A DNA stretch of 64,000 bases. It comes from Blautia parvula. GTDB lineage: Bacteria > Bacillota > Clostridia > Lachnospirales > Lachnospiraceae. Positions 1 to 38,520 of this stretch are shown here, piece by piece. The DNA lies in assembly GCF_020215665.1 (NCBI RefSeq), contig NZ_CP084061.1, positions 5,492,501 through 5,556,500 of the forward strand, in the 5' to 3' direction. The position numbers and the translations under genes were made by a program. The notes under the pieces are model-generated. The model made no database searches. It saw nothing but the letters and a program-made list of their open reading frames with translations, and was not told where the DNA came from. Numbering within the stretch: position 1 is the stretch's first letter; each line of letters opens with the position of its first letter.

Positions 1-580
<580 letters not shown>

Positions 581-28631: not shown

Positions 28632-28773
28632 AATGCTTATGTACACTTCCTGTTTTCTTTTATTTACACGTTCTTATCTTACCACACAATAAAATAAAAA
28701 TGAAGAACATTTCGTCCCACTTCCGAATATGTTATAGGAGGCAAAAACCGAAACATAAGCGGGAGGTATGAGG

Positions 28774-31700
28774 ATGGCAGAAAAAAACAGCGGTGCAGAG
28801 GGGCGGACAGCACTCGGTGCGCCGTTTCCATGTGATTCTAAAATGATATTGTTTTCCGGGAGGCCTACAAGCTGGTATGAAGTAGAGATGGTGACAGGCA
28901 GGGCAAAGCTTCGGGGAACCCTGGTTCCTGAGAGAGAGGTAAACGCCATTGGCTACAATGTGCTGGATTCTTATATTTACGGATATGACCAGAAAAGCGG
29001 CCAGTTTGTCCGGGTGGACAGCAGCGGCGCGGCGGAGGTCCTGACACCCAGGCCCCGGGGACTGCCTGCGGCTTTTTATGATGTGGGGACCCTGGATCTG
29101 AACGGGTATTATTATCTGTATGCGTCAGGAGAGCAGAGATTTTATACCGTGGATCTGAGGCCGGGTTCCCCCACGTATTTAAGACTGGTGGACCCGGCTG
29201 CCGGTTATGGGGAGCAGACGGAGAACTACGGCACAGCGCTCACACAGCCCCTTAAGATCGGAGACTGGGTGTGGCAGTCACAGGAAAATGTTCTGTATGG
29301 GGTAGCGGATGACGGAACCGTGTACCGGATTTTTACTGACGGTCAGGTGACAGCCCTTGATACTACAGGGCCTGATCCGGGCAGTACTTTCGGGGCAGCG
29401 GTCATGGACCGGAATGGGGTGCTCTATGCGGTGGCAGGCGGGGACGGAACCATTTACCGGTACCTGATCGAACAGGACAGGGCGCAGGCAGCCCGGTTTT
29501 CCGCAACCGTGCAGAATGCATACCAGGATGGTACCATGTGTCCGTATGCGGCTTTAGAGGTAGATTTTGGTGATGCGCCTGATATCGGAGGCACAGCGGG
29601 AAGCGGGAATTATAATACGCTGCTTGCCAGTGACGGGCCGCGCCACAGAATTGTTGACGGGCTGACTCTGGGACTTCTGGTAACCGGGGAGACAGAAGCA
29701 CATCAGAATGCCGCAGCGGATGGGGATGATCTGGAGCGCCGGATACAGGATGATGCCCTGACTGTTCCTCTGGCTTCCCTGCATGTGACAGACAGCACAT
29801 ATCATGTACTTGCGGGGGTCAGAAACCTTACGGGCACCCCTGCGAATCTGTACGGGTGGATCGATTTTAACAACAACGGGCTTTTTGAGGAGGAGGAATC
29901 GGTACACCTGGTCGTGCCGGCCAGTTCCCAGACCCAGATGATCTCCCTGGATTTTACGGTTCCGCCTTCCGCCAGGCTTCGGCCGGGGCATACATTTTTA
30001 AGACTCCGCCTGACCACGGATGATCTGCCGGAGGGGACATTGCTGGGACAGGACACGAGAAGCGTAGGGCCTGCGTCTGACGGGGAGGTGGAGGACTATA
30101 TCATAGAAATCCATGCGCTGGCAGATCTATCTGTGGAGAAAACGGCTGAACCGGATTCTCTCAATGAGGGGGAACGGATCACCTACCGCATTGTGATCAG
30201 AAACCAGGGTCCTCATCCTGCTCTTGCAGTGCGTCTGACGGATGATATCCCGGAAGAGATTTTTGAGCCTGAATACAGCACAGACAACGGAGGAACATGG
30301 AATCCGTGGACGGGAAGCCTGGAGATTGGGGAGATGCAGGCCGGCGAGGAGCGGGTGGTTCTTATTCGCGGCATCTTCCGCAGCGGCACAGCCACTGAGG
30401 TGGAGAACACGGCCCGCATCACAACAGGCTCCCAGGATGACAATCTGGATAACAACACGTCCACAGTGGTAACTCCGGTTAACCGTTCGGCTGATCTGTC
30501 TGTCACTAAGAAAGCAATCCCTTCTCCGGCTGTTGCAGGGGAACAGGTGGAATTCCTGATAGAAGTCACAAATCATGGGCCGGATGACGCGCTGAATGCC
30601 AGGATGACGGATGATATTCCGGCGGTACTGGAAAGACCTGAGATATCTTATGACCAGGGCGCGTCCTGGCAGGTATTCAGCGGGCAGACCGATGTATTTC
30701 GTGTGCCTTCCGGCAGCAGTGTGACATTCCATATAAGAGGAATGCTTTCGGCGTCGGCCGCAGGCAGTTTTTCCAACAGGGCTGAGGTGCAGTCTGAGAC
30801 ACCGGACCCGGACCTTTCTAACAATACAGATACCATAGAAGTTCCCATTGACCGGTCCGCAGACCTATCCGTGATAAAAAGGGCAGTCCAGGCTGCAGTA
30901 TACGAAGGACAGAGAATCGAATTTACCATAGTGCTTGAAAACAAAGGGCCATCGGATGCGGAAAATGTCACACTGACGGATGCAGTGCCGGCGGAGATCG
31001 TGAACGCTGAATTTTCCCTGAATGGGGGAGGCGTGTGGAATATCTGGAGCGGCTCCTATACCTGGCCCGATTTCCCGGTGGGAAGCAGTGTGACGGTACA
31101 GCTTCGCGGTACGGCAGCCCCCGGATTTACCGGAACAGTGACGAATACGGCGGTGGTGACTTCATCCGTACCGGACCCGAACCCGGATAATAATTCATCC
31201 GAGGATACAGTCACAGTGGAACCGGGCGCAGATCTGACAGTGAGCAAGACAGCAGAGCCGGACAGCATCACAGCAGGACAGAGAGTTGTGTACACCATAA
31301 CAGCCGGCAACCTGGGACCCGGCAGGGCTGAAAATGTTATCATCCGGGATGCAGCGTCCCCGTATCTGATGGAGACAGAGTATTCCATAGACGACGGAAG
31401 GACCTGGCTTCCCTGGAGCGGTTCCTATGCCGTCACATCTCTGGAAGCAGGGGAAAGTGCGGAAATCTCCCTGAGAGGCAGGACAGAGCCGTCCTTTACG
31501 GGCACACTTCGCAACACAGTGTCTGTCAGTTCGGATACACCGGACCCGAACCCGGGGAATAACACAGATGAGACGGAAGTGGTGGTGGATGTGTCGGCAG
31601 ACCTGTCTGTGAGAAAGACGGCAAAACCGAATCCCGCCAAACCCGGCGTACCGGTCACCTATGAAGTTACGGTAAAGAATCTGGGACCGTCGGATGCCGT

Positions 31701-32409
31701 GCAGGTGATTCTGGAGGATGCCATGCCGGCCGTTTTGGTGAACCTGGAGGTCTCCGCAGATGACGGGGAGAACTGGGAACCCTTCAGCGGCTCATGGACA
31801 ACGGAATTTCTGGCTGCGGGTACTTTTGTAAGGCTGCTGCTCAGGGGATTTGTGCCCCATAATGCCACGGGACAGTTGGTAAATACCGTGGAGGTAAGCA
31901 GCAGTACCAGGGACCCCTATCCTGACAACAACAGGTTCGAGCTTGTGACCCCCATCGCGCCCATGCCGGAGTTATTTATCACCAAGACCGCGTATCCGGA
32001 CTGCGCCATACCCTGTGAATATCTGATCTACACCATCCTGGTGGAGAACAGCGGTTCCGCAGACGCGGAAGAGGTGGTGCTCACGGATTACGTTCCGCGG
32101 GAACTTTGTAATCTGCAGTTTTCCGCAGACGGAGGCAGGACCTGGTCAGAGTGGAATGGGTCAGAAGCGATCGGAACGATCAGCAAGGGAGAAACTGTGA
32201 CCATACTCATTGCGGGGATGGTCCGTGGCAGAGCCTGCGGGGTTATCACCAACACCGCATCCGTATTCCGCGCAGGCTCGGAGGAATACTATCCGGATGA
32301 CAGTGTTACCATAACCACGCCGGTAAAACAGTGCTGCTGTTGTGAACCGGGAAGGCCGATCCCTCTGGAAAATAGCAGGGTGTACCGGGATTTCTTCCAT
32401 AACATGTGA
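28774..32409 (+). CDS. Giant DUF11-repeat protein with GEVED domain
   Basis: A 1211-residue surface-type protein. Residues ~1-260 resemble a beta-propeller-like DUF6923 region. A GEVED domain follows around 350-445 (LYGWIDFNNNGLFEEEE). Then come six DUF11 Ig-like repeats, each ~122 residues, opening with ADLSV-K-A-P at about 450, 573, 695, 818, 940 and 1064. A CCCC run lies ~25 residues from the end. There is no signal peptide, LPXTG or C-terminal membrane anchor. The start at 28774 has GGGAGG 7 nt upstream; the ATG at 28768 is too close. The repeats probably form a rod. See the neighbouring ABC transporter and the related DUF11 protein at 36433. Confidence 0.88.
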   Translation: MAEKNSGAEGRTALGAPFPCDSKMILFSGRPTSWYEVEMVTGRAKLRGTLVPEREVNAIGYNVLDSYIYGYDQKSGQFVRVDSSGAAEVLTPRPRGLPAAFYDVGTLDLNGYYYLYASGEQRFYTVDLRPGSPTYLRLVDPAAGYGEQTENYGTALTQPLKIGDWVWQSQENVLYGVADDGTVYRIFTDGQVTALDTTGPDPGSTFGAAVMDRNGVLYAVAGGDGTIYRYLIEQDRAQAARFSATVQNAYQDGTMCPYAALEVDFGDAPDIGGTAGSGNYNTLLASDGPRHRIVDGLTLGLLVTGETEAHQNAAADGDDLERRIQDDALTVPLASLHVTDSTYHVLAGVRNLTGTPANLYGWIDFNNNGLFEEEESVHLVVPASSQTQMISLDFTVPPSARLRPGHTFLRLRLTTDDLPEGTLLGQDTRSVGPASDGEVEDYIIEIHALADLSVEKTAEPDSLNEGERITYRIVIRNQGPHPALAVRLTDDIPEEIFEPEYSTDNGGTWNPWTGSLEIGEMQAGEERVVLIRGIFRSGTATEVENTARITTGSQDDNLDNNTSTVVTPVNRSADLSVTKKAIPSPAVAGEQVEFLIEVTNHGPDDALNARMTDDIPAVLERPEISYDQGASWQVFSGQTDVFRVPSGSSVTFHIRGMLSASAAGSFSNRAEVQSETPDPDLSNNTDTIEVPIDRSADLSVIKRAVQAAVYEGQRIEFTIVLENKGPSDAENVTLTDAVPAEIVNAEFSLNGGGVWNIWSGSYTWPDFPVGSSVTVQLRGTAAPGFTGTVTNTAVVTSSVPDPNPDNNSSEDTVTVEPGADLTVSKTAEPDSITAGQRVVYTITAGNLGPGRAENVIIRDAASPYLMETEYSIDDGRTWLPWSGSYAVTSLEAGESAEISLRGRTEPSFTGTLRNTVSVSSDTPDPNPGNNTDETEVVVDVSADLSVRKTAKPNPAKPGVPVTYEVTVKNLGPSDAVQVILEDAMPAVLVNLEVSADDGENWEPFSGSWTTEFLAAGTFVRLLLRGFVPHNATGQLVNTVEVSSSTRDPYPDNNRFELVTPIAPMPELFITKTAYPDCAIPCEYLIYTILVENSGSADAEEVVLTDYVPRELCNLQFSADGGRTWSEWNGSEAIGTISKGETVTILIAGMVRGRACGVITNTASVFRAGSEEYYPDDSVTITTPVKQCCCCEPGRPIPLENSRVYRDFFHNM

Positions 32410-32424
32410 TTAATGACACATCCC

Positions 32425-32471
32425 CCGGGCTGTCCGGCATATCCCTGTGCGGGGAATACCGGGCAGCCCGG
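32425..32471 (+). terminator. Strong hairpin after the DUF11 gene
   Basis: CCGGGCTGTCCGG (32425-32437) pairs with CCGGGCAGCCCGG (32459-32471) with one G-U pair. The following sequence is only moderately T-rich, so it may act as a weak terminator or mRNA 3' end stabiliser. Confidence 0.55.
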
Positions 32472-32493
32472 CATAATGTAACAAAATGTTCAC

Positions 32494-32521
32494 GTGACAG
32501 AATGGGAAGTTCTGGTATAAT
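32494..32521 (+). promoter_or_regulatory. Promoter of the ABC transporter pair
   Basis: GTGACA (32494-32499), a 16-bp spacer and TATAAT (32516-32521), with TGG directly before the -10. It is about 70 bp before the ATPase start codon. Confidence 0.65.
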
Positions 32522-32588
32522 AGACATATCACTTTATAATTGTCTATTATTTCAAGGCATAAGGGCAGAGCAGGAGAGGAGAAACAGC

Positions 32589-33296
32589 ATGAATTTTGTC
32601 ATAGAACATCTTTCAAAAGCCTTTGAGAAAAAGCAGGTACTAAAGGATATTACATTTACTTTTGACAGTGGAAAGATCTACGGACTTCTGGGAAGAAACG
32701 GGGCAGGCAAGACCACACTTTTTAACTGTCTGAACCGGGACCTGAAGACGGACGGAGGGGATTTCTTCCTGCAGGAGAACGGGGAGAGAGCGGAGTTAGC
32801 GGCGGAGGATATCGGTTATGTCCTGTCAACGCCCACTGTCCCGGAATTTCTCACAGGAAGGGAATTTCTGAAATTTTTTATTGATATCAATGAAAAGAGT
32901 ATTGCGGATATAAAAGATTTGGATGAGTATTTTTCCATTATGAACATTGATGAGGAGGACAGGGATAGGCTTCTCAAAGACTATTCTCATGGTATGAAAA
33001 ATAAGATGCAGATGCTGATCAATATCATCGCACAGCCAAAGCTTCTGCTTCTGGATGAGCCGCTCACATCCCTGGATGTGGTGGTGGCTGAGGAGATGAA
33101 GCAGCTTCTGCGCTCATTGAAAAAGGACAGGATCATTATTTTTTCCACACATATTATGGAGCTGGCTCTTGACCTGTGTGATGAGATCGTGATCCTCAAC
33201 CATGGAGAGCTGGAAGTGGTAGATCCGTCTAATCTGGATAATGGCGGATTTAAGGACAAGATCATACGGGCACTGAAGGAGGAAGAGAATGATTAG
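32589..33296 (+). CDS. ABC transporter ATP-binding protein
   Basis: A 235-residue ATPase of the ABC-2/drug-resistance type. Walker A is GRNGAGKTT, the signature is DYSHGMKNK, Walker B is LLLLDEP and the switch His is in FSTHIMEL. The ATG at 32589 has AGGAG upstream; an earlier in-frame start at 32406 would add 61 residues covering the promoter and hairpin. Its stop overlaps the start of the membrane partner by 8 bp. It lies between two surface-type genes, so export related to that assembly is possible but unproven. Confidence 0.93.
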   Translation: MNFVIEHLSKAFEKKQVLKDITFTFDSGKIYGLLGRNGAGKTTLFNCLNRDLKTDGGDFFLQENGERAELAAEDIGYVLSTPTVPEFLTGREFLKFFIDINEKSIADIKDLDEYFSIMNIDEEDRDRLLKDYSHGMKNKMQMLINIIAQPKLLLLDEPLTSLDVVVAEEMKQLLRSLKKDRIIIFSTHIMELALDLCDEIVILNHGELEVVDPSNLDNGGFKDKIIRALKEEEND

Positions 33297-34869
33297 GACG
33301 TTTCGTATTTCTTTTTCGCTGAAAAATACATACCGTGTGAACACGATCCTCTATTCCCTGAAGCAGATTCCCCTTATCAGGAAGATTCTGCCCCAGAGCC
33401 TCTACAGGAGCCAGGGGCTGAAGATATTTGCCAATATACTGTCCGGCCTGTGGGAAATCGCGGGAACTTTTCTGGGGAAGGTTTTATATCTTCTGATCAT
33501 GGTATTCGGGTTGGGGATGCTCTATGAGAACACAGGGGACGGAAGAATGTTTGTACATATTTTGTTCTTTCTGAGTCTGGTTGGGTCTTATATGAATACC
33601 TATATGTTCAATCCCAGTAATGATAAGTATTATGCCATGATCTTAATGCGTATGGATGCAAGGTCCTATACACTGACGAACTATGCCTATGCGGTGGGAA
33701 AGTGCATCCTGGGATTTCTGCCTTTTACCATTTGGTTTGGGGTGGAGAGAAATATTCCGCTGTGGTGCTGCCTGCTGTTTCCGTTCTTTATCGCGTCAGT
33801 GAAGATGCTGATAGCCTGGAACTATCTGGTTGATTTTAAAAGGACAGGGGAGAGCAGGGATGAGAATCTTCCCGGTAAGCTGGGATGGATACTGACAGCA
33901 GTCCTGCTTGCGGCGGCTTATGGGCTTCCTTATCTGGGAGTGCTTCTGCCTATGTGGCTTATGGCAGCGTTCATGGTGCTTTCCGTGGCGGCGGCCTGCG
34001 GGGCAGCAGTTTATATGGGGCGGTTCGATGAGTACAGAACCCTGTATCAGCAGCTTCTGGCAAAATTCAGAAACGGTATGGATTATAAAGCAACAGTAAA
34101 GGCCGCGGTTGAGGAGCAGAACCGTAAGCTTATCAGCCAGGACACCGGAATTACCAGCAGCAGAAAGGGATTTGAGTATTTTAATGAGCTTTTTGTGCGC
34201 AGGCATCAGAAAATCCTCTGGAAATCGGTGAAGAGGCAGGCGGTTATCTGTCTGTTTCTGTTTGTGGGGATTCTGTTCCTGTTTCAGGTAAACGAGGATA
34301 TCAGGAAACAGATCAACAGGATGCTTATGGTGTTTCTGCCGTACTTTGTGTTTATTATGTATATGATAAACCGGGGGACAAGTTTTACGCAGGCGCTGTT
34401 TATGAATTGTGACCACAGTATGCTCACATACTCTTTTTATAAGAAGCCGGAATTTATTCTGAAGCTGTTCCGCATCCGGCTCAGAGAGATCGTGAAGGTG
34501 AATCTGCTGCCCGCGTCGGTGATCGGTGTGGGGCTGCCGGTGCTGCTGTACTTCTCCGGGGGGACGGATAATCCTGTGAATTATTTGCTGCTGTTTGTGT
34601 CAGTGATGGCTATGAGTGCGTTCTTTTCCGTGCATTACCTGACCTGTTATTATCTGCTGCAGCCTTATAATGCGGGGACAGAGGTGGTCGGGGGGACTTA
34701 CAAAATTGTCACCTGGGCGACCTATATTGTCTGCTTTCTGTTCATGAACTTAAGGATGAGTACACTGGTGTTTGGAACGGTCGTTACCTGCTTTTGTCTG
34801 ATTTACTGTGTGGTGGCCTGTATTGTGGTTTACCGGGTAGCCGGGAGGACATTTCGGATTAGGAATTAG
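33289..34869 (+). CDS. ABC transporter membrane component (ABC-2 like)
   Basis: A 526-residue membrane protein with about ten hydrophobic helices in two groups, separated by a ~100-residue charged region near 235-310. It resembles clostridial ABC-2 permease-like proteins; no catalytic motif is seen. It overlaps the ATPase gene by 8 bp, so the two form one transporter. Its stop is 5 bp from the stop of the convergent Cys-rich gene, with no terminator between them. Confidence 0.82.
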   Translation: MIRTFRISFSLKNTYRVNTILYSLKQIPLIRKILPQSLYRSQGLKIFANILSGLWEIAGTFLGKVLYLLIMVFGLGMLYENTGDGRMFVHILFFLSLVGSYMNTYMFNPSNDKYYAMILMRMDARSYTLTNYAYAVGKCILGFLPFTIWFGVERNIPLWCCLLFPFFIASVKMLIAWNYLVDFKRTGESRDENLPGKLGWILTAVLLAAAYGLPYLGVLLPMWLMAAFMVLSVAAACGAAVYMGRFDEYRTLYQQLLAKFRNGMDYKATVKAAVEEQNRKLISQDTGITSSRKGFEYFNELFVRRHQKILWKSVKRQAVICLFLFVGILFLFQVNEDIRKQINRMLMVFLPYFVFIMYMINRGTSFTQALFMNCDHSMLTYSFYKKPEFILKLFRIRLREIVKVNLLPASVIGVGLPVLLYFSGGTDNPVNYLLLFVSVMAMSAFFSVHYLTCYYLLQPYNAGTEVVGGTYKIVTWATYIVCFLFMNLRMSTLVFGTVVTCFCLIYCVVACIVVYRVAGRTFRIRN

Positions 34870-34874
34870 GGTGT

Positions 34875-35801
34875 TTATGACTCCGGTTCGCTGTTGTCTG
34901 TGGGACAATCAAAGCGGCAGCACTCCAGCGCTTCCAGCTTGGCATAGAGTACCTGTTCCAGGAAAGTGACTTTGGTGACAGTCTGTTGGACGGATTGATT
35001 GACTTTCAGAAGGTCACAGATGTTGTCGGCCAGTTCGATGGCTTTCTGTAGTTTTTCACCTTCTGCATTCAGGATGTGGGCCAAAGCATTTTCCGTCCTG
35101 GCGATTGACTTCAGGATGGCACAGGCAGCGTCGGAACAGGAATTGCAGTTGCAGTCACAGTCGGAATCACAGTCACAGCTGGAATCACAGTCACAGTTAC
35201 AATCACAGTCGGGTCTGCAGGAGCATTTGGAACTGCAGTCACAGTCAGGGTTGCAGGAGCATTTGGAACTGCAGTTACAGTCAGGGTTGCAGCAGCATTT
35301 GGAACTGCAGCCGCAGTCGGGTCTGCAGGAGCATTTGGAACTGCAGCAGCAGTCAGGGTTGCAGCAGCATTTGGAATTGCAGTCACAGTCAGGGTTGCAG
35401 GAGCATTTGGAATTGCAGTCACAGTCAGGGTTGCAGCAGCATTTGGAATTGCAGTCGCAGCCGGGTTTGCAGCAACACCCGGGTTCACAATCACATTTGG
35501 AACTGCAGCACTTGGGGTAGCAATCGCAGTCACAGTCGGTTTTGCAATTGCTGCCTGATTTGCAGCAACCCTTAGAATCACAGTCACAGTCGGGCTTGCA
35601 GCATACTTTAGAATCACAATTGCAGTCAGATTTGCAGCAGCCCTTAGAATTACAGTTCCGATCGGTTTTGCACCTGCAATTCATTTCAGAAATATTCATT
35701 TCACTTATATTCATTTTACAGATATCTGCAGCGGATATATCCGTGCCATATATTTCCTCAGCCAAACTGGCTATAGTTAGAGGTTCTATTTTTTGATTCA
35801 T
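34875..35801 (-). CDS. Cysteine-rich repeat protein with NAEGEK-type C-terminal domain
   Basis: A 308-residue protein of unknown function with about 70 cysteines. Residues ~1-40 are ordinary and lack a signal peptide. Residues ~41-230 are Cys, Asp, Asn, Ser and Lys in units such as CDCNSKCSCNPD (12 residues). Residues ~231-300 are a helical domain with ALAHILNAEGEKLQ, then a leucine-rich stretch ending KLEALECC. The same domain occurs in the proteins at 36125 and 36433. GGGAGAA precedes the ATG. The Cys array could bind metals or be cross-linked by disulfides, as in insoluble spore-coat proteins. The repeats suggest copy number may vary between strains. Confidence 0.85.
   Translation of the reverse strand: MNQKIEPLTIASLAEEIYGTDISAADICKMNISEMNISEMNCRCKTDRNCNSKGCCKSDCNCDSKVCCKPDCDCDSKGCCKSGSNCKTDCDCDCYPKCCSSKCDCEPGCCCKPGCDCNSKCCCNPDCDCNSKCSCNPDCDCNSKCCCNPDCCCSSKCSCRPDCGCSSKCCCNPDCNCSSKCSCNPDCDCSSKCSCRPDCDCNCDCDSSCDCDSDCDCNCNSCSDAACAILKSIARTENALAHILNAEGEKLQKAIELADNICDLLKVNQSVQQTVTKVTFLEQVLYAKLEALECCRFDCPTDNSEPES
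35221..35472 (-). repeat. Seven 36-bp tandem repeats coding Cys-rich 12-mers
   Basis: Seven 36-bp units begin at 35221, 35257, 35293, 35329, 35365, 35401 and 35437 (plus-strand coordinates). Each starts with GAGCATTTGG or CAGCATTTGG and ends in TGCAG. They encode the 12-residue Cys motif in frame. More divergent units continue on both sides (about 35140-35690). Confidence 0.9.
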
Positions 35802-36010
35802 ATATTTCTCCCTGATTAAAAAAAGCCAGAGCGTATTAGAAAATCATTCTCCGCAGACAGTGATAAACTGCGGGCAGGATTAAAGTTTCAAATTCACTCT
35901 AAAGTCCGTTTCCATGCAGATGCACATCGGAAAACAGCAGGACAGTTACCGGACAGCACCGGAATGGCAGCATATTTGTATTTAATATATGCGGGTTTTC
36001 GGATGACGGT

Positions 36011-36039
36011 ACAGGATGTTTTATTGTCCAATATCCTGT
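36011..36039. promoter_or_regulatory. Inverted repeat in the intergenic region 35802-36124
   Basis: ACAGGAT (36011-36017) and ATCCTGT (36033-36039) form an inverted repeat just upstream of the -35 at 36044, a fitting place for an activator. The rest of the 323-bp interval between the divergent Cys-rich and NAEGEK-domain genes holds no open frame I can support. A small GAGCA/TGCTC hairpin lies at 36081-36096. Confidence 0.4.
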
Positions 36040-36043
36040 CCTA

Positions 36044-36072
36044 TTAACTGGAGGCAAGTACCTGCATATATA
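36044..36072 (+). promoter_or_regulatory. Promoter of the NAEGEK-domain / DUF11 operon
   Basis: TTAACT (36044-36049), a 17-bp spacer and TATATA (36067-36072), about 50 bp before the start codon at 36125. Confidence 0.55.
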
Positions 36073-36124
36073 TAAATAATGAGCAGATATTTGCTCAGAA
36101 TATGAATATTTAGGGGGATATTTT

Positions 36125-36433
36125 ATGGGTATGCCCATTATTATGCCGGGGGACACTACGCTGGACCAGGCTGTAACAGATTTGATAATATCAGTTGCTA
36201 TGCAGGAAACTTCACTTTCCCACATTCTGAACGCGGAGGGGGAAAAGATGGAGGCAATTATTTCCATGGAGGGAACATCTCCGGAAGACCTGATGAGGAT
36301 GAACCAGTCTGCGGAACTCATAACAGGCGCGGTCACAAGGCTGGAGCTGATACTCCAGAGTAAATTAGAGCTGTTTGTCCGTTGTCCTTCTGTGACGAGC
36401 AGCAGTATGAATGGAACAGGAGGGGAAAGCTGA
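36125..36433 (+). CDS. Small stand-alone NAEGEK-domain protein
   Basis: A 102-residue protein made almost wholly of the ~70-residue helical domain shared with its neighbours: ISVAMQETSLSHILNAEGEK, a short acidic link, then MNQSAELITGAVTRLELILQSKLE and a Cys. There is no signal peptide or membrane segment. GGGGG lies 7 nt before the ATG. The stop codon overlaps the ATG of the next gene by one base (TGATG), so it is co-translated with the large DUF11 protein, which ends in the same domain. That suggests the copies oligomerise with each other. Confidence 0.85.
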   Translation: MGMPIIMPGDTTLDQAVTDLIISVAMQETSLSHILNAEGEKMEAIISMEGTSPEDLMRMNQSAELITGAVTRLELILQSKLELFVRCPSVTSSSMNGTGGES

Positions 36434-38520
36434 TGGCAGTAGTAGCAGGCAGAGTGATATTTGACCGGGACAGAAGTGCAACTGTCAACAGCGGAGATTC
36501 CGGAATTGCCAATATTCCGGTTGTTTTGCAGAATGTAGACACCAATGAAAGGCTTACCGTTCTCACGGATGCAAATGGAAATTATTCTTTTATCAATGTA
36601 CCCCCGGGAAATTACAGGGTGGTAGAATCCTACGGAACACAGGGAGGCGTTCCATCACCGGGGAATTTTGCCGATGCGGAGACAGGAAGCATACCGCAGG
36701 GTGTGAACCCGCCCATCAGTACGGTGACGAATCCGCCTGTCGGTTCAACCAATCTTGACTCAGTGACGCCGGATACTCTGTTTGTGACAGTGGACATGGC
36801 AGATGTGATGAATCAGAACTTTCTGAACGGCCCGGTGATCTATACGCCTATTGGGGCACTTGTAGATTTGTGTGCGGTGGTATCAGGGGAAAATCTCATT
36901 GAAGCCGCGGATAACGGCACTTTCGGCAGTTTTCCGGCGGGGACGCCTGCCAATACAGGAGTACCGGTTGAGCCATATCCTGATGTGACGCCGGATTTCA
37001 CTTATGTGCTGCCGAATCCGGATGTTTTTGCGCCTATGGGCGGGGAATATACAGTAGAAAATATTATGAATGATGCCAGAAGTGAGCAGATTGGCGCATG
37101 GTGGCGGATCGCAGACCATACGGAAGGCAATGAAACAGGACGAATGATGGTGGTAAACGGATACAACCCCGGCGCTGTATTTTTCCGTGCCGCGGTGGAT
37201 GTTGAGGAAAACACCAGCTATCTGTTTACTGCATGGATACTGAATCTGTTCAGGGTTACAGGTTATCCCAATCCGGAATTGGGCGTGCGGGTTCTGGACA
37301 GAAACGGTAATATCTTATACAGCGCAACGCTGGGCCTGCTGATTCCGCCAAATGTAAATGCACCGGAATGGAAGCAGTTCGGTACAGTCCTCAACTCCGG
37401 GAACAATACCAGTCTCACAGTGGAATTTTTGAGTGAAGGCCCCGAGGTGATCGGGAATGATTATGCCATTGATGATGTAGCATTCCAGGAAATAGAGGTA
37501 CGCCAATTTGTTCCGGTGAAGACTGCCAGTACCTCGGCTGCAGGTATCGGAGAAATTTTTGATTATACCGTCACATTGACAAATACCTGTGAGAATCCGC
37601 TTACAGATGTATTCTTCCGTGATTTGGTACCCCAGGGACTGACATTCGTTCCGGGCAGTGTGACCATCAATGGGACCACATTTCCGCAGGCAGACCCGGC
37701 GGAGGGATTTTCACTGCCCGATATTGCCGGCGGCCAGACCACAGCGGTCAGATTTTCTGTAGTGGCCAATGCGGTACCGGAAGAGAATCCCACGATCAAC
37801 CGGGCAACTATTAATTACTCTTATACGCCTGTGGAGGGCGGAATCCCTGCTGCTTTCCAGGTGGAATCCAATGAGGTCCCGGTATTGATATCGGGGGCGC
37901 TGGCGGATCTGTCTGTGGTAAAGACAGCCAGTGAAAGCACTGCGGGACAGGGGGCACAGCTAACCTATACCATTACTGTGTCAAATGCAGGCCCGTCTCC
38001 GGCTGAAGATGTTCTTTTAACAGATGCAGTACCCCCATCCCTTACAGATGCGGAATATTCTGTAAATGGTGGTACTGTTTTCAATCCGTGGAGCGGAAGA
38101 CTGAGTCTTGGCACCCTTGAAGCGGGAGAAAACCGGATTATCCTCATCCGGGGAATCGTAAGCCCTCAGGCAGCGGGAACTATTGTTAACACCGCTGTTG
38201 TGACCTCTTCCACACCGGACCCCAATCCGGACAATAACTCATCCACCGTAACGATAAGCATTCTGACACCCAGATGCCGGGCCCTTGTAGATTTGGTAGA
38301 ATCCGTTGCGCTGCAGGAAGCCGCCCTTGCCCGCATTCTAAATGCAGAGGGACAGAAAATGCAGGCGTTTATCAATTTGGAAGACGTGACCAATGAGGAA
38401 TTATTCAAGCTCAATAGCTCTGTGACAAGTATGATCGGGACGGTTTCCAGACTGGAGATCGTACTTCAGGCAAAATTACAGAATGTGTCCTGTCAGCTTA
38501 ATGACTGCCTGGATGCATAA
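36433..38520 (+). CDS. SdrD-B-like / DUF11 protein ending in a NAEGEK domain
   Basis: A 695-residue surface-type protein. Residues ~1-75 form an SdrD-B/Cna-B-like fold (GIANIPVVLQNVDTNERLTV, then TDANGNYSFINVPPGNYRVV). Residues ~140-355 look like a jelly-roll carbohydrate-binding or MAM-like domain. Two DUF11 units follow (VPVKTASTSAAGIGE; ADLSVVKTASESTAG). The last ~75 residues are the helical domain (SVALQEAALARILNAEGQKM, ending SCQLNDC). No signal peptide or sortase motif is seen. The ATG overlaps the previous stop by one base, with AGGAGGGG upstream. The N-terminal fold may undergo isopeptide bonding, but I did not confirm the residues. Confidence 0.87.
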   Translation: MAVVAGRVIFDRDRSATVNSGDSGIANIPVVLQNVDTNERLTVLTDANGNYSFINVPPGNYRVVESYGTQGGVPSPGNFADAETGSIPQGVNPPISTVTNPPVGSTNLDSVTPDTLFVTVDMADVMNQNFLNGPVIYTPIGALVDLCAVVSGENLIEAADNGTFGSFPAGTPANTGVPVEPYPDVTPDFTYVLPNPDVFAPMGGEYTVENIMNDARSEQIGAWWRIADHTEGNETGRMMVVNGYNPGAVFFRAAVDVEENTSYLFTAWILNLFRVTGYPNPELGVRVLDRNGNILYSATLGLLIPPNVNAPEWKQFGTVLNSGNNTSLTVEFLSEGPEVIGNDYAIDDVAFQEIEVRQFVPVKTASTSAAGIGEIFDYTVTLTNTCENPLTDVFFRDLVPQGLTFVPGSVTINGTTFPQADPAEGFSLPDIAGGQTTAVRFSVVANAVPEENPTINRATINYSYTPVEGGIPAAFQVESNEVPVLISGALADLSVVKTASESTAGQGAQLTYTITVSNAGPSPAEDVLLTDAVPPSLTDAEYSVNGGTVFNPWSGRLSLGTLEAGENRIILIRGIVSPQAAGTIVNTAVVTSSTPDPNPDNNSSTVTISILTPRCRALVDLVESVALQEAALARILNAEGQKMQAFINLEDVTNEELFKLNSSVTSMIGTVSRLEIVLQAKLQNVSCQLNDCLDA

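Follow-up and report, generated by a model that had tools for sequence, protein, structure and literature searches.

A three-gene cluster of Blautia parvula that probably encodes an endospore appendage of the A-ENA type

The three adjacent genes described here, A, B and C, lie in a 64,000-nucleotide stretch of Blautia parvula (assembly GCF_020215665.1, contig NZ_CP084061.1, positions 5,492,501 to 5,556,500), which we call the window and from whose first letter all coordinates are counted. Gene A (34875-35801, minus strand) encodes a Cys-rich protein of 308 amino acids with 72 cysteines (23% Cys), the putative anchor. Gene B (36125-36433, plus strand) encodes 102 amino acids and a candidate A-ENA-like fibre subunit (pilin), and gene C (36433-38520, plus strand) a 695-amino-acid SdrD_B/DUF11 protein, the putative adhesin; the stop codon of B and the ATG of C have one base in common. 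A preliminary description made from the DNA letters had placed the three reading frames correctly and had claimed that they share a domain. Every element of its motif (S-I/V-A..E..L..ILNAEG-E/Q-K, V/M/L-N-x-S, LE.[IV]L[QY][SA]KL and a Cys) is present in A, B and C, and the common part covers about 70-85 residues. Against 2000 shuffles each, local alignment scored 122 for A-B (shuffle maximum 46, z 21.8), 131 for A-C (65, z 18.4) and 176 for B-C (56, z 27.4). By these alignments the segments are homologous, as had been claimed; similarity by chance or low complexity was ruled out by shuffles, profile and fold. The genome holds exactly three copies of the domain at E<=0.001, those of A, B and C, and a fourth match at E 0.56 with internal stops is taken as chance. 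No model in Pfam or NCBIfam covers the shared domain. A phage origin of B was rejected, since 50,697 phage records gave no match and PHROGs nothing convincing.

The best guide to the function of the domain is a solved structure. In a phmmer search of the PDB, B matched 9ihh_A at E 9.2e-12, with residues 1-83 of B on residues 1-87 of 9ihh from the first Met onwards, and this was the sole clear entry among the solved structures. A profile of the three copies, which upheld their homology, matched the same structure at E 1.1e-14. The entry, released 2026-03-04, bears the title "Ex vivo spore-silk A-ENA fibers". The domain is therefore not undescribed, as had first been supposed. An AlphaFold2 model of B, built with 52 relatives, is a two-helix hairpin (mean predicted local distance difference test score 83.6) with long helices at residues 13-47 and 53-85 (36161-36379, plus strand). 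Searched with Foldseek against the PDB, the model again ranked 9ihh_A first (probability 1.00, template modelling (TM) scores 0.66/0.71, E 2.6e-3), with the runner-up at E 0.82. B begins with a hook, MGMPIIMP (36125-36148, plus strand), in which M1 and P4 are invariant in the 52 relatives, an invariance that is partly selected for because the relatives were picked by the hook pattern. The N-terminal MGMPIIMPG is missing in A, and in C the end of the DUF11 part stands in its place. Taking the sequence match first and the fold match second, we conclude that B looks like a fibre subunit of the A-ENA type. Both proteins belong to one length class (101 amino acids in 9ihh, 102 in B), share the helical hairpin and start with MGMP (9ihh begins MGMPTIP); the identity in the Foldseek alignment is 37%, and A and C differ from 9ihh by their extra domains.

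In A and C the domain forms the tail of a larger protein. The copy in A (34917-35150, minus strand; residues 218-295) matches the family profile at E 2e-30 and follows a Cys-rich repeat (35142-35681, minus strand) that has 65 cysteines in residues 41-220 and DNA repeats of 36 and 72 bp. The copy in C (38242-38493, plus strand; residues 604-687) matches at E 4e-33, and a structure model predicts helices at residues 613-647 and 654-694. The rest of C has an SdrD_B-like head (36451-36633, plus strand; residues 7-67, Pfam SdrD_B 39.6 bits) and two DUF11 repeats (37519-38256, plus strand; residues about 363-608, Pfam DUF11 127.1 bits), whose number varies among relatives of C. A fold search with C returned generic immunoglobulin (Ig)-like matches only (TM 0.12-0.29), and none of the three proteins matched Pfam Collagen at E values up to 1. 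A free N-terminal subunit hook was not found in A or C. Because their domain is C-terminal and hookless, we do not class A and C as fibre subunits; A is probably the anchor of the fibre and C probably an adhesin joined to it through the tail domain.

None of the three proteins carries an evident export signal. A hydropathy scan found no hydrophobic N-terminal stretch in A (0.83), B (1.52) or C (1.22), where a lipoprotein encoded in the window reached 2.97, and A, B and C contain neither LPxTG nor a strong membrane segment. Among the relatives, 1 of 19 Cys proteins exceeded the hydropathy threshold and 1 of 41 adhesins had LPxTG. A signal peptide is not required for proteins that the mother cell deposits on the spore.

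The upstream regions suggest a link between the family and sigma-K, the strict −10 form of which is CATANNNTA. A relaxed pattern, AC-N15-17-CATA, was searched within 160 nucleotides upstream of genes. In the part of the source available, the sigma-K pattern of Clostridioides difficile and Bacillus subtilis has AC at −35 and a −10 given as CATATAAT (PMC3789822). The relaxed pattern precedes 38 of 54 relatives of B, compared with 49 of 638 neighbouring genes and 33 of 319 intergenic regions (Fisher test, 5e-20), and 35 of 51 pilins once similar upstream regions are removed. The strict pattern precedes 21/54 pilins, 9/638 other genes and 6/319 intergenic regions. Resampled sequences gave on average 0.9 strict matches (maximum 3 in 100 runs) and 5.9 relaxed ones (maximum 12). 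Spacings of 16 and 17 bp are the most frequent (18 and 19 cases); every other value between 10 and 23 accounts for 1-6 cases, and the controls have no such peak. The relaxed pattern is also enriched before the Cys proteins (9/19) and the adhesins (14/41). Full sigma-A and sigma-E patterns were each found upstream of 0 of the 54 relatives of B. The sigma-E −10 element alone is raised (10/54 compared with 2.4 in shuffles, maximum 7), as expected because it resembles that of sigma-K. At the locus itself, a sigma-K-like promoter of B, AC-N16-CATATATATA, lies 78 nucleotides upstream (36047-36074, plus strand; relaxed pattern), and another, AC-N17-CATATATTA, points towards A from 209 nucleotides upstream (35980-36010, minus strand; strict pattern).

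The domain also co-occurs with the sporulation ATPase SpoIVA, which is present in this genome. All 13 domain-bearing genomes of the class sample encode SpoIVA, compared with 255 of 343 in the whole sample (P 0.02). It was found in 37 of 38 other phylum-sample genomes with the domain and in 9 of 12 non-hits, the latter being the first ones listed and not a random draw. Among the genomes behind our loci (50 of the 77 loci were used), 43 of 50 encode it, and the 7 misses are all metagenome-assembled genomes (MAGs).

These loci come from a scan of 84,980 species genomes, which gave at least 370 relatives, of which 77 loci were kept. Among the matches listed, the named hosts are mostly Lachnospiraceae, Oscillospiraceae and uncultured Clostridia, with some Bacilli MAGs, Longibaculum and Holdemania, and the closest trio is that of Faecalicatena faecalis (identity 73% for B, 74% for C and 70% for the domain of A). 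The domain is present in 7 of 61 relatives, 13 of 343 genomes of the class sample and 39 of 398 of the phylum sample. Given this patchy occurrence, it was likely gained by transfer or repeatedly lost. Plasmid carriage was seen in a single record, L024 (NZ_CP083716.1 145432-161680), an 807-kb plasmid of Bacillus velezensis with two copies of the domain, one of them N-terminal on a collagen-like protein beside a glycosyltransferase gene.

By profile, the 77 loci and the window hold 143 copies of the domain, 58 alone, 58 C-terminal, 25 N-terminal and 2 internal, in four architectures. Pilins start with M[GS]MP and are filled by the domain; 39 of 54 relatives of B contain Cys, 36 of these in the C-terminal tail. 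Cys-rich proteins have the domain at their end, and most of the aligned ones carry a 200-residue repeat-like region and not the pure Cys repeat of A. A beta-propeller N-terminus in relatives of A, a label guessed from the repeats, had no Pfam match in the two proteins tested. Large proteins, the third type, carry a C-terminal domain behind widely different heads, namely SdrD_B/DUF11 as in C, pAdhesive_15, VWA (as in L032 9670-11988, with a C-terminal A-ENA-like plug), DUF6923 with DUF11, and SdrD_B with Ig-like domains. In L037, L045, L054, L089 and others, Ser/Thr-rich linkers (TSTTSTTTT) that look like glycosylation targets stand between pAdhesive_15-type heads and the plug. In the fourth architecture an N-terminal hook and domain precede long extensions, which are collagen-like in L016, L034 and the Bacillus velezensis record; the Pfam collagen score of L034 (25.4) is slightly below the cut-off of 27.2, and in L016 long Gly-X-Y runs were seen directly. 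The remark in the preliminary description that similar motifs occur in collagen-like proteins was borne out. Further long proteins with N-terminal hook and domain (L030 7007-9451, L035 5310-7928, L057 6300-7943 and 8001-9128) have extensions of unassigned type, and a hook is what a fibre tip would need; the L030 protein, the sole one of these scanned against Pfam, had one match, below cut-off. That a single domain occurs both by itself and at the end of larger proteins suggests an assembly module, in agreement with the docking or oligomerisation role suggested earlier.

Forty relatives of B had 3.5 kb on both sides, and 28 of them had a domain-bearing partner within 4 kb: a Cys type beside 13, an adhesin with C-terminal domain beside 22, both beside 10, with neither beside 12. 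The Cys-type partner is divergent and upstream in 10 of the 13. The hook pattern MPxI stands before the domain in 0 of 19 Cys proteins and in 1 of 36 adhesins scored, the sole exception being L042, apparently a pilin whose reading frame was called too long. Among domain-bearing open reading frames of at most 150 amino acids, 54 of 63 have the hook; the hook pattern had been one criterion in selecting the pilins. The start of helix 1 (RxQA-like) is kept in 30 of 36 adhesins and in none of the 19 Cys proteins. A tree was built of 109 domains, leaving out five rows of the adhesin list with no clear anchor motif; in it the Cys type to which A belongs forms one group (Shimodaira-Hasegawa-like approximate likelihood ratio test 88), and pilins and adhesins interleave. 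We read the Cys type as an old, separate anchor lineage and the adhesin plugs as derived from pilins more than once.

From this we propose, and regard as probable, that A, B and C make an endospore appendage of the A-ENA type with B as subunit, A as anchor and C as adhesin. The mother cell would make all three late in sporulation, after engulfment, under sigma-K. B, a non-secreted hairpin with a free N-terminal hook, would polymerise head to tail, as inferred from 9ihh. The Cys-rich part of A may be cross-linked into the spore coat or exosporium, where the hook of a first B would dock on the hookless domain of A, with more B molecules stacking on it. C, translated directly after B, would be plugged into the fibre by its own hookless domain and would display its SdrD_B/DUF11 part to the surroundings. 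We base the roles of A and C partly on the F-ENA fibre of Bacillus thuringiensis where, according to the available part of the source, the C-terminus of F-Anchor is a pilin-like domain without a hook, and the hook of the pilin docks there, as is partly predicted (PMC11952670). A copy with no hook of its own can serve only as acceptor; if the hook points to the spore as in F-ENA, C therefore fits a base or side position better than the tip. The scheme is weakest in the placement of C, which for want of a hook could not attach to the end of a fibre in the manner of F-ENA. The anchor role of A and the adhesin role of C are inferred.

Three other explanations were weighed. Because DUF11 and SdrD_B are common in secreted wall proteins, and an ATP-binding cassette (ABC) transporter and permease adjoin at 32406-34869, the DUF11 adhesin, the Cys-rich protein and a small adaptor could form a complex on the wall of the vegetative cell with the help of the transporter. 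We consider this highly improbable, since A, B and C contain neither LPxTG nor a strong membrane segment and show no signal-peptide-like stretch, sigma-K-type promoters occur in the family, the relative of B is a spore fibre and the domain co-occurs with SpoIVA. Moreover, no relative of the permease was found beside the domain in any of the 77 loci (flanks of unequal length). The ATPase has generic matches in 7 of the 77, about 26% identical in the two displayed, and the transporter looks like an unrelated neighbour. Of the multi-component surface assembly envisaged in the preliminary description, the multi-component and exposed character stands; the surface is very probably that of the spore and not of the vegetative cell, and the transporter drops out.

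The proteins might also act as a glue of coat or exosporium that forms local oligomers and no fibre, with B as cross-linking coat protein, A as scaffold and C as surface decoration. The frequent Cys in the tails of B relatives and the Cys content of A would suit such a glue, and fibre formation by B is a prediction from sequence; B nevertheless matches a solved fibre protein nearly end to end, hook included, and we find the glue unlikely. It is possible, if rather doubtful, that C and not A is the spore-side anchor, or that both start fibres, in which case the Cys protein could cap or sheathe the fibre. Either copy could receive the first B, as A and C both have no free hook, and C-like partners are commoner beside B relatives than A-like ones (22 and 13 of 40). 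The C-like heads are adhesive or Ig-like, however, and differ widely (pAdhesive_15, SdrD_B/DUF11, VWA, DUF6923/DUF11), as is expected of exposed parts, and Cys-rich tethers fit a position in the coat better.

Several observations weigh against a spore fibre with A as anchor and C as adhesin. The evidence for this organism consists of sequence comparisons and structure models. The best Foldseek E-value for B is just 2.6e-3, with none below 0.001. Within its own genus the domain occurs in only 1 of 20 genomes. Sixteen of 54 relatives of B have no sigma-K pattern, the B promoter of the window fits the relaxed form and fails the strict CATANNNTA, and the promoter towards A lies beyond the 160-nucleotide limit and so went uncounted. 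The best sigma-K match of the genome scores 294.5 bits, where the curated cut-off is 298.65, and one good-quality domain-bearing genome (G514) has no SpoIVA. No domain-bearing partner lies within 4 kb of 12 of 40 relatives of B. The domain tree was built on only 74 columns, with many forks open, and 3 of its 22 A-type rows were assigned by gene position and length, not by Cys content. The test for signal peptides was a hydropathy scan and not a trained predictor.

The stretch 28768-32409 encodes a giant protein of 1213 amino acids with DUF6923, GEVED and six DUF11 repeats, which ends in a CCCC tail. It has no A-ENA-like domain, LPxTG or signal-peptide-like stretch (0.72), and no sigma-K site was found before its gene; its earlier inclusion in the assembly is unsupported. 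In locus L068 the same DUF6923-DUF11 head carries an A-ENA-like domain beside a pilin, and therefore the giant protein may be a further spore-surface protein that has no plug. The start of the window (1-578) shares 88-89% identity with segments that carry no annotation in the records of several distantly related bacteria, and is perhaps the end of a ribosomal RNA gene.

Gut anaerobes travel between hosts as spores, and the adhesion of clostridial spores is poorly known. We see about an even chance that in spore-forming Clostridia the family builds a modular display fibre, in which helical subunits with a hook polymerise from a Cys-rich anchor whose own copy is hookless and unrelated sticky heads (SdrD_B/DUF11, pAdhesive_15, VWA, DUF6923/DUF11, collagen-like) were repeatedly swapped onto one plug, with no secretion signals and under sigma-K. 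An adhesive spore coat could then be re-equipped by exchanging one domain. The fibre type is not categorically new because its structure is solved. A literature search found no published account of A-ENA, and one may exist on preprint servers, which lay outside the search. The present analysis contributes the three-component cluster, the anchor lineage, the swapped heads and the probable link to sigma-K, parts of which an unseen paper may describe. If the proposal is true, a domain outside Pfam and NCBIfam gains names, promoters and likely roles, the solved A-ENA structure becomes connected with the anchors and adhesins of many gut species, and spore adhesion in commensals becomes directly testable via three genes.

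Compared with sortase-anchored wall adhesins of the MSCRAMM type (microbial surface components recognizing adhesive matrix molecules), C shares the SdrD_B and DUF11 domains and differs in having no signal-peptide-like stretch and no LPxTG. The S-ENA and L-ENA of the Bacillus cereus group (Ena1A/B, Ena1C, Ena3A, L-BclA, ExsL) are, in the available part of the source, likewise highly resilient spore fibres of late sporulation with dedicated anchors, Ena1C being that of S-ENA (PMC12921279). They belong to another family, PF13157, which had no match in A, B, C or the genome; the control genomes were silent too. The closest parallel is F-ENA with F-Anchor and F-BclA, which, as far as the available part of that article goes, also combines a small hooked pilin, a neighbouring anchor with a hookless copy and a separate adhesive protein (PMC11952670). 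In contrast to our cluster, F-ENA belongs to DUF4183, of which this genome has no match. The putative anchor A is Cys-rich and not collagen-like, and the putative adhesin C has a pilin-like domain where F-BclA, in the same part of the article, has just a hook motif (PMC11952670). If our proposal is true, the cluster adds a helical fibre to the F-ENA build plan of hooked pilin, hookless anchor and adhesive partner.

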